A stretch of DNA of 64,000 nucleotides, taken from contig NZ_SSDF01000091.1 of NCBI RefSeq assembly GCF_004794515.1, positions 1 through 64,000 on the forward strand, written 5' to 3'. This document shows positions 12,157 to 16,446 of the stretch, piece by piece. Each line of letters opens with the position of its first letter. Position 1 is the stretch's first letter. The stretch comes from Microbacterium sp. A20. Its GTDB lineage: Bacteria > Actinomycetota > Actinomycetes > Actinomycetales > Microbacteriaceae. Below the pieces are notes generated by a model, which worked only from the letters and a program-made list of their open reading frames with translations, made no database searches and had not been told where the DNA came from. Made by a program: the position numbers and the translations under genes.

Positions 12157-13185
12157 ATGAAGATCGGCATCCTGACGAGCGGCGGCGACTGCCCCGGCCT
12201 CAACGCGGTCATCCGCGGCATCGTGCTCAAGGGCACCACCACGTACGACCTGGAGTTCGTCGGCATCCGTGACGGGTGGCGAGGCCTCGTCGACGGCGAC
12301 TTCATGCCTCTCACCCGCCACGAGGTGAAGGGTCTGTCCAAGGTCGGCGGCACGATCCTCGGCACCAGCCGCACGAACCCCTACGAGGGTGAGCGCGGGG
12401 GAGCGGAGAACATCGCCAAGACCCTCTACGGGCACAAGATCGACGGCATCATCGCGATCGGCGGCGAGGGCACTCTCGCCGCGGCCGACCGTCTCGCGAA
12501 AGACGGGATCAAGGTCATCGGGGTCCCCAAGACGATCGACAACGACCTGCAGGCGACGGACTACTCGTTCGGCTTCGACACGGCCGTGAACATCGCCACG
12601 GACGCGATGGACCGGCTTCGCACCACCGGTGACTCGCACCAGCGGTGCATGGTCGCCGAGGTCATGGGACGCCACGTGGGCTGGATCGCCCTGCACGCCG
12701 GCATGGCTGCGGGCGCGCACGTGATCTGCATCCCCGAGGTGCCGATGTCGATCGACGACATCACCGAGCTCGTGACCAGCGCCCACGACCGAGGCCGCGC
12801 GCCCCTGGTCGTCGTCTCCGAGGGTTTCAAGCTGCTCGGTATGGACGAGGCATACAGCGACAAGGGCCTCGACGCCTTCAACCGGCCGCGGCTGGGTGGT
12901 ATCGGCGATCTGCTCGCGCCCGAGATCGAGCGCATCACGGGCATCGAGACGCGCGCCACGATCCTCGGCCACATCCAGCGGGGCGGGTCTCCTTCCGCAT
13001 TCGACCGTGTGCTGGCGACGCGTCTCGGCCTCCACGCCGCGGACGCGCTCGTCGACGGCGCCTGGGGTCAGATGGTGGCGATGCAGGGCACCGACATCGT
13101 GCGGGTCCCGTTCGCCGACGCGCTCGGGGAGCTGAACACGGTTCCGCGCTACCGCTACGACGAGGCCGCTGCGCTCTTCGGCTGA
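12157..13185 (+). CDS. pfkA: 6-phosphofructokinase
   Basis: Phosphorylates fructose-6-phosphate in glycolysis. The 342-aa protein starts with MKIGILTSGGDCPGLNAVIR and carries GGEGT (about 102-106) and PKTIDND (about 125-131). Gly at the third position of the phosphoryl-donor loop favours ATP, whereas pyrophosphate-dependent enzymes usually carry Asp there. The Lys in PKTIDND is typical of the mixed actinobacterial PFK group. MGRHVGW and the substrate-binding HIQRGGSPS are present. A GAAGG ribosome-binding site precedes the ATG. Confidence 0.95.
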   Translation: MKIGILTSGGDCPGLNAVIRGIVLKGTTTYDLEFVGIRDGWRGLVDGDFMPLTRHEVKGLSKVGGTILGTSRTNPYEGERGGAENIAKTLYGHKIDGIIAIGGEGTLAAADRLAKDGIKVIGVPKTIDNDLQATDYSFGFDTAVNIATDAMDRLRTTGDSHQRCMVAEVMGRHVGWIALHAGMAAGAHVICIPEVPMSIDDITELVTSAHDRGRAPLVVVSEGFKLLGMDEAYSDKGLDAFNRPRLGGIGDLLAPEIERITGIETRATILGHIQRGGSPSAFDRVLATRLGLHAADALVDGAWGQMVAMQGTDIVRVPFADALGELNTVPRYRYDEAAALFG

Positions 13186-13219
13186 GACTTCGGCTCGCCC
13201 GGCGCTCTGTTCGCCGATT

Positions 13220-13284
13220 CAGGCGATGTTGCGACAACAGGCAGTTTCGCCGCTCAGATGCCTGAATCCGGCTGATTGCCTGAT
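13220..13284. repeat. Left 65-bp repeat flanking the DUF559 gene
   Basis: Conserved blocks with fixed spacing: CAGGCGAT (13220), 8 bases, AACAGGCAGTTTCG (13236), 10 bases, GCCTGA (13260), 12 bases, GCCTGAT (13278). The same blocks with identical spacers recur at 14268-14332 in the same orientation. CAGGC/GCCTG units point both ways, so hairpins such as CAGGCA/TGCCTG can form. Confidence 0.8.
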
Positions 13285-13295
13285 CTCGCGGGCGT

Positions 13296-14147
13296 TCAGG
13301 CGTGCGCGCGACGGCAATGCAGACCCTGCGCCATCGCGGTCAGCACCGTCTGTTCGACGTAGCGGGCGTCGTTCATCACCTGGTGCACGTCGAATCGGAG
13401 GATCGTGTAGCCGCGGAGCACCAGGCGCGCATCGGCGCGGATGTCGCGGCGCCGATCCTTCGGGGAGCTGTGATATGCGAACCCGTCGATCTGGATGCCG
13501 AGGCGGTCACCGATCATCCCGTCCAACGGGTGCCCGTCGACCCAGACCTGCTGGCGCACGACGACGCCGATCCCGCGCATCAGGGAGACGAAGGTGGTCT
13601 CCGGCCCCGAGTCCGAGCGATCGCCGACGAGCATGGTGAGACGGGATGCCGCCGCCGAGCGCCACGCGACGCGCTCGAGGACATCGACATCGACCCCGCC
13701 TCGGCGCACCGCGGACTCCCAGACCGTCAGGGCATCCGGTTCAGGCAGACACCGGGCGATCTGGAACAGGACGTTGATTACAGGCTCCTCCGTCGAGCGC
13801 GGATGCACGGGAACGGGACCCTGGCTGCGGTGGACGAGGATGCCGGATGCATCGAACCGCGATGCGCTGTGCGCGAGTGCGACGTGCACGGCATCCGTCT
13901 TCAGCTCCCACCAGCCGCGGAGACTGGCCGCGCTCGCGCAGGTCACGCGTCCGCCGACCTTCGCAGCCGCGACGCGCCTCGGGTCGCACTCGGGGGTGAG
14001 GAGCCAGGATCGGCGTACACGCCTGAGCCGTCCGTCCTCCACTGCTCGCGACACCGCGTGATCGGTGAAACCCGCACGGCGGAGGGCGGAGGAGTGCGCG
14101 GCACCGTTCTGCGCGCGCACCCATTCCGCAGCTGTCAGATCAGGCAT
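13296..14147 (-). CDS. DUF559 endonuclease-like protein with AbiEi-like N-terminus
   Basis: A 283-aa protein. The N-terminal 80 residues form a winged-helix-like segment (SSALRRAGFTDHAVSRAVEDGRL...), as in AbiEi-type type IV antitoxin domains. The C-terminus (about 180-280) is a DUF559/Vsr-like PD-(D/E)XK-fold segment with ETTF, then IQIDGFAYHSS and a basic DRRRDIRADARL helix. Such proteins are common orphans in actinobacteria, and their function is not established. ATG 14147 is chosen because the upstream in-frame extension is Arg/Pro-rich shadow coding. A CAAGCT element lies six bases upstream. The gene is bracketed by 65-bp repeats, which suggests mobility. No partner toxin gene is adjacent. 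Confidence 0.8.
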   Translation of the reverse strand: MPDLTAAEWVRAQNGAAHSSALRRAGFTDHAVSRAVEDGRLRRVRRSWLLTPECDPRRVAAAKVGGRVTCASAASLRGWWELKTDAVHVALAHSASRFDASGILVHRSQGPVPVHPRSTEEPVINVLFQIARCLPEPDALTVWESAVRRGGVDVDVLERVAWRSAAASRLTMLVGDRSDSGPETTFVSLMRGIGVVVRQQVWVDGHPLDGMIGDRLGIQIDGFAYHSSPKDRRRDIRADARLVLRGYTILRFDVHQVMNDARYVEQTVLTAMAQGLHCRRAHA

Positions 14148-14207
14148 GAGGTCAGCTTGCCCGTGCCGGCGGGCGTGGCGGAGCCGCAGTCCCGGCGCTG
14201 GGGGAGA

Positions 14208-14242
14208 GACGCCCTCGCGCGCGAATCTGTGGAGAGGGCGTC
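14208..14242. other. Inverted repeat upstream of the DUF559 gene
   Basis: GACGCCCTC (14208-14216) and GAGGGCGTC (14234-14242) form a perfect 9-bp stem with a 17-base loop. It lies in the 199-base gap between the DUF559 start and the ptrB stop and could be an operator or a hairpin. Nothing else is recognisable there besides the right repeat. Confidence 0.45.
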
Positions 14243-14267
14243 GCGCGCGCCGGCGGCAGAGCCGAGA

Positions 14268-14332
14268 CAGGCGATCGCGCCGGAACAGGCAGTTTCGGGC
14301 GGGATCTGCCTGATTGGGCGGGATCGCCTGAT
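14268..14332. repeat. Right 65-bp repeat flanking the DUF559 gene
   Basis: Same blocks and spacing as the left copy: CAGGCGAT (14268), AACAGGCAGTTTCG (14284), GCCTGA (14308), GCCTGAT (14326). Within this copy GGGCGGGATC-(T)-GCCTGATT occurs twice in tandem (about 14296-14332). A further TCAGGC at 14347 includes the ptrB stop codon. Confidence 0.8.
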
Positions 14333-14346
14333 GCGGCCGCGGCGGC

Positions 14347-16446
14347 TCAGGCCTCGGCGAGTCCCAGCGTGTCGAGCAGCCAGGCGAGCTCGAACGCACG
14401 CTCGCGCCACGAGTTGTAACGGCCGCTCACGCCGCCGTGCCCTGCCACCATCTCGCACTTGAGGAGCACATCGGATGCGCCGGCCTCGCGCAGGCGCGCG
14501 ACCCACTTCGCCGGTTCCACGTACAGCACGCGGGTGTCATTGAGCGATGTCACCGCGAGGATGCGCGGGTAGCGGATGCCGTCGCGCACGTTCTCGTACG
14601 GGGAGTACGACTTCATGTACTCGTAGACGTCGGCGTCGTGAAGAGGGTCGCCCCACTCATCCCACTCGATGACGGTCAGCGGCAGCGAGGGATCGAGGAT
14701 CGTCGTCAGTGCGTCCACGAACGGCACGCCCGCGAGGACGCCCGCGAAGAGCTCGGGCGCGAGGTTGGTCACGGCACCCATCAGCAGTCCGCCGGCGCTG
14801 CCGCCCTCGGCCACCATCCGGCTCGGCGAGGTCACACCGGTCGCGACCAGGTGCTCGCCGCACGACACGAAGTCCGTGAAGGTGTTGCGCTTGTTGAGCA
14901 GCTTGCCGTCTTCGTACCACTGGCGGCCCATCTCGCCGCCGCCGCGCACGTGAGCGACCGCGAAGATCACGCCACGATCGAGCTCCGAGAGCCGCGCGAC
15001 CGAGAAACCGGGGTCGATCGAGTGCTCGTAGGAGCCGTAGCCGTAGAGATGCACGGGACGTGCTTGCGCACCCGGCTCTCCGAATGACCGCTTCCACACG
15101 AGAGAGATCGGCACCCGCACCCCGTCGGAGGCCGTCGCCCACTCCCGCCGCTGGCCGTACTCTTCGGGGTCGTAGCCGCCGAGGACGGTGACCTGCTTGC
15201 GCAGCAGCAGCTCGCGGCTGGCGAGGTCGAGGTCGTACACCGTGCCGGGCGTGACGAAGGATGTGTATCCGAGTCGCAGGAAGGGCGAGTGCCACTCCGG
15301 GTTCCCGCTCACCCCGGCCGAGTACAGCGGCTCGTCGAAGGGGATCTCGTCGACCGTATCCGTGGCGTAGTCGAGCAGTCCGACACGCTCGAGACCTTCG
15401 CTGCGGTACTCGATCGTGGCGAAGTCGCGGAACGCATCCATGCCGAGCAGACGCCGGCCGGCTTCGTGGGCGATCACCCGGTGCCGCTCGCCCTGAGGGT
15501 CGGACGCCGCCACCGAGACGAGTTCGAAGTCGAGGGCTCCGTCGTTGTGCAGGATGAAGAGCCGGTCCTCGCCGTCCACCACGGCGTGATCGATCGAGTA
15601 CTCCACTCCTTCCCGGCGCGGCCAGACCAGGCGGGGTGCCGCGGTCAGGTCGCCGGTCAGGTCGACGAGGTACTCCTCGCTCGTGATGCTCGAACCGACC
15701 CCGATCACGAGGTAGCGCCGGCTGCGCGTGATCCCTGCGCCGAGCCAGAACTTCTCGTCGGGTTCGTGGAACAGCTGCACGTCGTCGGTGATCGGAGTGC
15801 CGAGACGGTGGAGCCAGAGCGTGTCCGGACGCCACGCCTCATCCCGGGTCGTGTAGAGGACGCCGGTGCCGTCCGGGGTGAAGAACGCGCCGCCGGTGTT
15901 CGGGATCTCGTCCTCGAGGGTGTCGCCCAAGACGAGGTCGCGCACGTGCACCGTGTACAGCTCGTCCCCCTCGAAGTCGGTCGACCAGAGCAGTTTCGTC
16001 GCGTCGTCCGACGTGTCGAACGCCCCGAGCGAGAAGAACTCGTGCCCCTCGGCCTCGACGTTCCCGTCGAGCAGGATCACCTCACCGGGAACCGGCACGC
16101 CGGCCTCGAGCGTCGGGGGAGTCCAGTCGTCGTGTTCCGCGGCAGCCCGGCAGTGGATGCCGTACTGGGCGCCTTCCTCGGTGCGGCTGTAGTACCACCA
16201 GTCGCCGCGTCGGGTGGGCACCGACAGGTCGGTCTCCTGCACCCGGCTCTTGATCTCCTCGAAGAGGCGCTCGCGGAGATCGGCCAGGTGCGCCGTCTCA
16301 GTGTCGGTGTGGGCGTTCTCCGCTTCGAGGTGTGCGATGACCTCTGCGGAGTCCTTCGCGCGCATCCACTCGTACGGGTCGTCGAACGTGTCACCGTGGT
16401 GCGTGCGAAGTGCGGAGCGGCGGGCAGCGAGAGGAGCGTCAGTCAC
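14347..16446 (-). CDS. ptrB: Oligopeptidase B (protease II, S9A family)
   Basis: Cytoplasmic serine peptidase that cleaves short peptides after basic residues. At 699 aa it has family length: an N-terminal beta-propeller, then the alpha/beta-hydrolase domain with the nucleophile in GGSAGG (Ser about 550), the acid in SLNDTRVLY and the histidine in GHGGVSGR. The DPYEWM segment near the start is typical. The GTG start lies exactly six bases after a TAGCGT -10, so the mRNA is probably leaderless. It is divergent from the phosphate transporter gene. Confidence 0.94.
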   Translation of the reverse strand: MTDAPLAARRSALRTHHGDTFDDPYEWMRAKDSAEVIAHLEAENAHTDTETAHLADLRERLFEEIKSRVQETDLSVPTRRGDWWYYSRTEEGAQYGIHCRAAAEHDDWTPPTLEAGVPVPGEVILLDGNVEAEGHEFFSLGAFDTSDDATKLLWSTDFEGDELYTVHVRDLVLGDTLEDEIPNTGGAFFTPDGTGVLYTTRDEAWRPDTLWLHRLGTPITDDVQLFHEPDEKFWLGAGITRSRRYLVIGVGSSITSEEYLVDLTGDLTAAPRLVWPRREGVEYSIDHAVVDGEDRLFILHNDGALDFELVSVAASDPQGERHRVIAHEAGRRLLGMDAFRDFATIEYRSEGLERVGLLDYATDTVDEIPFDEPLYSAGVSGNPEWHSPFLRLGYTSFVTPGTVYDLDLASRELLLRKQVTVLGGYDPEEYGQRREWATASDGVRVPISLVWKRSFGEPGAQARPVHLYGYGSYEHSIDPGFSVARLSELDRGVIFAVAHVRGGGEMGRQWYEDGKLLNKRNTFTDFVSCGEHLVATGVTSPSRMVAEGGSAGGLLMGAVTNLAPELFAGVLAGVPFVDALTTILDPSLPLTVIEWDEWGDPLHDADVYEYMKSYSPYENVRDGIRYPRILAVTSLNDTRVLYVEPAKWVARLREAGASDVLLKCEMVAGHGGVSGRYNSWRERAFELAWLLDTLGLAEA

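Follow-up and report, generated by a model that had tools for sequence, protein, structure and literature searches.

A gene for a DUF559-type protein lies between pfkA and ptrB in Microbacterium sp. A20 and a repeat stands at each of its ends, which raises the question of whether the gene and the repeats belong together and what such a pairing would do. The locus was analysed within a 64,000-nucleotide stretch of this genome, referred to here as the window. The answer favoured here, at a probability of about 0.6, is that the window holds one unit of the form element, nuclease, element, which would be part of a nuclease and site system in which the sites are bound, cut and repaired.

Each repeat is a 63 bp array of four near-invariant pentamer units, CAGGC-N13-CAGGC-N17-GCCTG-N13-GCCTG. 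Every copy is an imperfect palindrome in which two oppositely oriented 23 bp halves are separated by 17 bp (23-17-23). The units start at 13220, 13238, 13260 and 13278 in copy 1 and at 14268, 14286, 14308 and 14326 in copy 2, giving periods of 18-22-18 in both (Table 1). The first-pass annotation had described two copies in the same orientation, sharing sequence blocks and the spacing between them, with CAGGC/GCCTG recurring every 18–22 bp in both directions, and all of this holds at the positions in Table 1. The copies are real, but the length of 65 bp given to them counts 1–2 bases past the last unit, the true span being 63 bp. The outermost TCAGGC units, which coincide with the DUF559 and ptrB stop codons and which that annotation cautioned might be chance, are out of step with the array.

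Table 1. Positions of the arrays, the nuclease gene and the host genes in the window.
Feature	Positions	Strand	Remarks
pfkA, left-hand host gene	12157..13185	+	
Array copy 1 (63 bp)	13220..13282	.	13 bp past the nuclease stop codon; 34 bp past the pfkA stop
Copy 1, left 23 bp half (two CAGGC units with a period of 18 bp)	13220..13242	+	
Copy 1, right 23 bp half, inverted	13260..13282	-	
Nuclease gene, 283 aa	13296..14147	-	ATG at 14147, stop 13296-13298; a longer upstream reading frame exists
Vsr/EDxHD-like nuclease domain, residues 176-282	13302..13622	-	E183, D209, Q219, D221, H226, D235, D239
AbiEi-like module, residues 1-175 (winged helix and second domain)	13623..14147	-	6y8q_A Z 8.5; HMM
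Array copy 2 (63 bp)	14268..14330	.	orientation as copy 1; 120 bp upstream of the nuclease start codon; 16 bp past the ptrB stop
Copy 2, left 23 bp half	14268..14290	+	
Copy 2, right 23 bp half, inverted	14308..14330	-	
ptrB (prolyl oligopeptidase), right-hand host gene	14347..16446	-	

The 3.94 Mb genome of Microbacterium sp. A20 (G000) contains 12 perfect arrays and 1 with one mismatch, 13 copies in all. A looser pattern finds 0 further arrays at two mismatches and 1 at three. The reversed pattern, used as a control, has 2 matches at ≤3 mismatches and 0 at ≤1, and the array is therefore far above chance. Spacers vary among the G000 copies and the units are almost constant. The idea that the repeats are private to the DUF559 gene does not agree with these numbers, as only 2 of the 13 copies are in the window. 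Two arrays of this genome (C52:29507-29587 and C75:43721-43801) are accompanied by a fifth CAGGC unit that lies outside the array and in step with it at 18 bp.

The protein encoded between the arrays matches two Pfam families, MTES_1575 (PF18741) at 37.4 bits, just under the cut-off of 38.2, and DUF559 (PF04480) at 22.9 bits, over the cut-off of 20.6. Matches to AbiEi and homing-endonuclease HMMs are weak, and NCBIfam has no match for the protein. The AlphaFold model, made with 73 sequences, has a mean pLDDT of 90. Its best match in the PDB is I-Bth0305I (3r3p_A), with residues 180-278 giving a Z of 14.0 and an rmsd of 2.3 over 96 aligned residues. Residues 175-278 match Vsr (1cw0, Z 10.5). 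For residues 1-175 the match is the AbiEi antitoxin 6y8q_A, with a Z of 8.5 and an rmsd of 4.9 over 172 aligned residues. According to this model, the gene product combines an AbiEi-like DNA-binding module with a Vsr/EDxHD homing-endonuclease-like domain in a single protein. The first description of the gene as an AbiEi-like/Vsr-like nuclease candidate is thus supported by the Pfam and HMM matches and by all three fold matches.

Five residues, D209, Q219, D221, D235 and D239, are invariant in the 109 relatives aligned, with H226 kept in 108 and E183 in 107 of these. DUF559-type nucleases have a glutamate at the position equivalent to Q219. The presence of Q rather than E in 109 of 109 relatives counts against the favoured reading. 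There is no AbiEii toxin gene beside the nuclease in the window, where the neighbours are pfkA and the prolyl oligopeptidase gene. Phage, plasmid and viral collections yielded no relative, the viral scan having confirmed 0 of 49 candidates.

At 110 nuclease loci, up to 600 bp on either side of the gene was scanned for arrays. The set consists of 109 of the 150 listed matches (the 30 best and 79 more) and L194, which was chosen because of its arrays; some of the 110 come from near-identical genomes. Arrays are present on both sides of the gene at 80 loci, on one side at 15 and were not found at the remaining 15. Leaving out L194, both sides are occupied at 79 of 109. At 59 loci, 16 of 16 unit positions are matched on both sides. 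Neither shuffled flanks (0/220) nor gene interiors (0/110) show bracketing, and of 72 control windows 3 reach at least 15 of 16 positions and 1 reaches 16, although this control is biased upward because its loci were fetched for carrying CAGGC-N13-CAGGC.

By tblastn within each stretch, 74 of the 110 loci are beside pfkA and/or ptrB and 36 are elsewhere. The latter fall into several separate neighbourhoods, with names read from translations, such as next to ffh and a glutamate-cysteine-ligase-like gene, next to an IMP-dehydrogenase-like gene, in the trmD-map gap and next to a DEAD-helicase gene. The occurrence of the gene with its arrays in separate neighbourhoods suggests that they have moved together or been inserted repeatedly. 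The earlier suggestion that the repeats accompany the gene is upheld, in that they are found with it at other loci and vary with it.

More distant and array-negative homologues were searched for palindromes of any unit in a set of 45 loci, made up of 16 of the 110 (mostly negative in the array scan) and 29 further loci, 27 of which belong to other genera. At least 20 of 28 pairs were found on both sides at 14 of the 45 loci; 20 pairs were reached in 1 of 95 control windows. Units of CGG, CCGGA and GAACAC were read in some of these 14, and the remaining 31 are without clear palindromes on both sides. The YAGG scan gave arrays on both sides at 4 of the 29 further loci. In distant homologues bracketing is demonstrated for a minority only. 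Across the family, a homologue at E<=1e-20 is present in 111 of 249 genomes and 50 of 85 genera.

The arrays themselves are also found in other Microbacterium genomes. With at most one mismatch, the CAGGC array is present in 78 of 366 Microbacterium genomes (G000 included) in up to 51 copies, and the YAGG array, with no mismatch allowed, is present in 179 of the 366, with 1281 copies in total. As an off-by-one comparison, an array with a centre one base shorter (62 bp) is found in 17 of 366 genomes. One clade (G184, G202, G240, G246, G258, G281 and G298) has 18–28 arrays of 62 bp in each genome in addition to 8–11 of 63 bp. A pattern with a free centre matches in 12 of 59 Microbacterium genomes and in 1 of 39 from other families of the order, this lone match being taken as chance.

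Five or more YAGG arrays are found in 75 of the 126 genomes that have a nuclease homologue at E<=1e-60, a threshold of the analyst's own choice, and in 23 of the 240 others; these genomes are related, so contingency p-values overstate their independence. A scatter of the repeats over the genome with no link to DUF559 genes had been named in the first-pass annotation as evidence that would speak against it. The repeats are scattered, but the link is found. Copy numbers are 1–51 per genome, with a median of 7 in nuclease-bearing genomes. No YAGG array is present in 26 of the 126 homologue-bearing genomes; a different unit or spacing explains some of these (period 19 in G384 and G296, other variants in G013). 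These 26, and the 23 genomes that have five or more arrays in the absence of such a homologue, are exceptions to the link and count against the favoured reading. The surroundings of 36 copies, 13 from G000 and 23 from other genomes and a few of them adjoining the nuclease, were classified with a codon-usage ORF script. All 36 are intergenic, 24 between co-directional genes, 12 between convergent genes and 0 between divergent genes.

The state of the pfkA-ptrB gap was surveyed in 30 genomes picked for lacking a close nuclease, of which 21 stretches span both genes. In 14 of the 21 the gap has neither array nor gene. The gaps in G200, G259, G262 and G002 are 58, 88, 60 and 65 bp long and their PfkA is 99–100% identical to that of the window, so that the unit of about 1.1 kb, previously proposed to be an insertion between pfkA and ptrB, is indeed missing from close relatives. 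Three of the 14, G143 (L244), G251 (L241) and G116 (L252), have approximately 1 kb of other DNA in this gap. A single array is kept in G182, G183 and G040 and three quarters of one in G261, with perhaps a C-terminal remnant of the nuclease in G182 and G183 (identified by eye in G182). Strains that lack the nuclease and still carry two copies, which had been held to tell against a link, are represented by 3 of the 21, G288, G140 and G365; in each of these, however, a fragment of the nuclease gene lies between the two arrays. This is read as decay and not as independence of the arrays.

For 11 dispersed G000 copies, the orthologous gaps were compared in six relatives, with 30 of 66 combinations being comparable. 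Arrays fill 12 of 15 gaps in relatives with an intact nuclease (G029, G199 and G203) and 5 of 15 in those where it is missing or truncated (G040, G183 and G260; Fisher p 0.025, kinship ignored). Likewise, perfect copies make up 45 of 51 copies with ≤1 mismatch in G000, G029 and G005 and 10 of 17 in G040, G182 and G183 (p 0.013, kinship ignored). From these comparisons, loss of the nuclease tends to go with smaller numbers of arrays and with more mismatches in them. Clean insertion with target duplication was not found among the sites compared; empty sites were seen, with unclean junctions. One candidate for a clean insertion site, at L415, was rejected, there being approximately 130 bp in G167 and approximately 10–20 bp in G031 with no readable duplication.

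Pairs of elements also enclose DNA that differs between genomes. In G131, a 12.3 kb stretch carrying sulfate-assimilation genes, as read from translations, lies between two direct elements that are 93% alike (L426, G131:C1:3066500-3081000). G130 has one element at the same place, with the flanks joined and no 12.3 kb stretch. In G167, two elements separated by 1.3 kb enclose a lipoprotein-like gene (L416 1001-2363); G031 carries a single element there, together with a pyroglutamyl-peptidase-like gene. Such differences would arise if a cut at an element were followed by repair from a second element or annealing to it, and plain recombination between repeats would produce them equally well.

The array could act as a duplex, with its units as protein sites, or as a hairpin, and the first-pass annotation had left both readings standing. 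The fold of copy 2 is unusually stable (z -4.9) and that of copy 1 is not (z -1.5). An apparent excess of arm pairing (0.62 vs 0.49), considered as a sign of selection for hairpins, vanished under a same-genome control. In three genomes, represented by 13, 18 and 17 copies, pairing of arms within a copy against pairing between copies of the same genome is 0.535/0.542, 0.553/0.574 and 0.578/0.607. As there is no extra pairing within copies, the arrays are likely to be duplex sites rather than hairpins. Of the two readings, the array of protein sites fits and the alternative hairpins fail on this comparison.

Constraint on the units was assessed in 13 orthologous copies of G131 and G130, leaving out places with larger rearrangements and requiring a pattern match in both genomes. 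Units differ at 3 of 208 positions and spacers at 34 of 611 (p 0.011), with 139 differences in 2581 positions of the flanks. All 17 of the G131 stretches have a partner in G130. This indicates that the bias from requiring the pattern in both is small and that movement is rare. All three unit changes lie in G130, as deviations from the consensus; in this genome the nuclease (L406) is split by a deletion, the upstream element is lost and four arrays have a unit mismatch. Conservation of the units is equally compatible with a tamed regulator and with a cutting site that is maintained.

Across the loci the units are CAGGC, CAGGA, CAGGT, CAGGG or TAGG, with a period of 18 or 19 and a centre of 22–24. 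These variants were mapped on a tree of 109 nuclease proteins (94 with arrays), from which residues 85-116 were left out, and compared with 200 shuffles. The first base changes 5 times on the tree (lowest shuffle 11), the unit class 25 times (lowest shuffle 39) and the geometry 20 times (lowest shuffle 35). By this measure, unit and spacing follow the nuclease lineage. In the lineage of G130 and G131 (L398, L067 and L395) there is a wider conserved unit, about CGAGAACAGG, which is seen again immediately beyond the 63 bp.

Where a genome has two or three paralogues, the units differ between them, as in G274, G290, G013 and G257. Microbacterium sp. A20 itself has a second nuclease (contig C69, L447 1240-2490), 36% identical to that of the window and bracketed by near-perfect GAAGGAG palindromes of period 19, with 27 and 25 of 28 pairs. 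A search for base-reading residues in the nuclease gave column 93 (with base 5) and column 99 (with base 1) as the best candidates, which are not significant after pairing. The independent pairs going the expected way average 2.9 of 6 for residue 93 and 2.5 of 4 for residue 99, with none going the opposite way.

The preferred reading of the window as an element-nuclease-element unit draws on features read from the sequences, namely the array geometry, the bracketing, the lineage-specific units, the occurrence at several loci, gain and loss between species, the better retention of arrays where the nuclease is intact and the differences in the DNA enclosed by two elements. In this scheme, the AbiEi-like part would very probably bind the 63 bp duplex, with one protein on each 23 bp half and a dimer spanning the site. 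The Vsr/EDxHD-like domain would then, less surely but more likely than not, nick or cut at or beside the bound element. The break may be mended with a different element-bearing place as template or by the joining of two elements, a step for which the chances are about level. Repair of this kind could place copies of the element, or of the unit as a whole, in intergenic sites that lacked them, and could delete or insert the DNA between two elements, the nuclease included. That intact targets adjoin the gene is surprising for an enzyme that cuts actively. The proposal can be widened to a gene-and-site system of the Microbacteriaceae, in which an AbiEi-Vsr fusion carries a duplex four-unit target at each end, spreads and maintains solo targets at gene ends and allows the DNA between two targets to come and go as a cassette. 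The REP/RAYT organisation would thus have been reached independently with unrelated parts, and paralogues would keep separate target codes in one cell. This wider proposal is held at even odds, and the evidence points to a system that may be selfish or tamed.

The main rival to the site-bearing nuclease is a tamed chromosomal regulator, an AbiEi-like repressor or roadblock for which the arrays would be operators and gene-end stops, with the nuclease part silent or guarding against foreign DNA and nothing moving. The exclusively intergenic placing of the 36 classified copies (24 co-directional, 12 convergent, 0 divergent), the array copy upstream of the nuclease gene and the purifying selection that the units seem to be under, while the spacers drift like the flanks, all speak for a regulator, and AbiEi proteins autoregulate via inverted repeats in the available text of PMC7319586. 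It is nevertheless rather unlikely, given that arrays stand at both ends of the gene and do so at several unrelated loci, that its catalytic-type residues are nearly invariant and that the sites that are filled vary by species. Somewhat more doubtful still is that the solo elements are relics, not mobile in their own right, of nuclease insertions that were deleted by recombination between the flanking copies. The two arrays around a gene fragment in G288, G140 and G365, the one array in G182 and G183 and the element pairs enclosing DNA that differs between close genomes are in keeping with relics, but genomes have up to 51 copies and the 36 nuclease loci away from pfkA-ptrB are in few neighbourhoods.

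Mobile hairpins of the REP/RAYT type, moved by an unseen transposase with the nuclease as a passenger, are very improbable. The palindromes at gene ends, the flanked gene and their co-variation do make up a REP/RAYT-like organisation; the fold of the bracketed gene is AbiEi and Vsr and not HUH, however, arm pairing within copies is not in excess and the paralogues of one genome have different units. The least credible explanation is that the arrays are bidirectional transcription terminators that are beside the gene by chance. These would be placed at gene ends, as the arrays are, and copy 2 does fold well, but the fold of copy 1 is ordinary, pairing is not selected and bracketing at 80 of 110 loci compares with 0 of 220 in shuffled flanks. 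Neither a terminator nor a promoter consensus is present in 12900-14700.

In its organisation, the preferred nuclease and site system resembles REP/REPIN sequences and RAYT (TnpA-REP, 'REPtrons'), where, in the available text of PMC8266576 and PMC3733652, a chromosomal nuclease-type gene is flanked by, and varies with, palindromes dispersed at gene ends. Both features have a counterpart here in the flanking on both sides at 80 of 110 loci and in the 36 of 36 classified copies that are intergenic, with 0 divergent. RAYT is an HUH transposase acting on folded single-stranded REPs, according to the accessible parts of PMC8266576, whereas here an AbiEi-Vsr protein goes with a duplex four-unit array and the bracketed gene has no HUH fold. 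Recognition of a folded hairpin is not supported, indirectly, by pairing that is no better within copies than between them. The REP literature available puts REPs usually at more than 100 per genome, in contrast to the 1–51 array copies per genome here (median 7 in nuclease-bearing genomes).

The catalytic domain resembles the EDxHD homing endonuclease I-Bth0305I in fold (Z 14) and has EDxHD-type conserved acidic and His residues (E183, D209, H226 and D235) in 107–109 of 109 relatives. It also resembles the very-short-patch endonuclease Vsr in fold (1cw0, Z 10.5). Vsr is a mismatch repair enzyme that is not known to have dispersed sites. Insertion of a homing endonuclease gene destroys its own target, whereas the gene here is free-standing and bracketed by perfect arrays, a contrast that holds if these arrays are what it targets. 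According to the available part of PMC3943268, the I-Bth0305I dimer sits on a target of nearly 60 bp, which is close to the 63 bp of the array. The AbiEi antitoxin of type IV AbiE systems, including Rv2827c, is similar in the fold of residues 1-175, and the two 23 bp halves of the array are like its paired inverted repeats in geometry. In the accessible text of PMC7319586, AbiEi-family proteins bind pairs of 23 bp inverted repeats that are 3 or 13 bp apart, as against the 23-17-23 geometry known here from sequence. The window differs from AbiE in having no AbiEii neighbour, a fused nuclease instead and sites dispersed genome-wide. As far as these sources extend, the 23 bp halves and the span of about 60 bp agree with both fold relatives, the AbiEi family and I-Bth0305I. 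The Pfam matches relate the window protein to MTES_1575/DUF559 (PF18741, PF04480); the MTES_1575 Vsr-REase domain was named from a HEPN-transglutaminase protein, and the available part of that description makes no link with repeats.

In the open-access literature, of which coverage was partial, DUF559, AbiEi or Vsr genes with dispersed palindromes were not found described. The system fails the HUH and folded-hairpin tests, and has an EDxHD-like fold but intact arrays and no phage, plasmid or viral relative; it is therefore considered, with respect to that literature, to be a new category. If the protein binds and cuts these sites, there would be more than 100 natural nuclease-target pairs whose units differ by single bases (CAGGC/CAGGA, CAGG/TAGG) and whose spacing varies (period 18 or 19, centre 22 to 24), which would be enough to decipher how the AbiEi part reads DNA. 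It could explain some of the differences between strains in these genera, such as the 12 kb sulfate-assimilation cluster that lies between two elements in one genome and is missing in a close relative, and the natural nuclease-minus relatives make the question of why bacteria keep such repeats testable. If the protein binds and cuts the arrays, this would be a second and unrelated bacterial answer to REP/RAYT, a nuclease with a private, lineage-specific target code.
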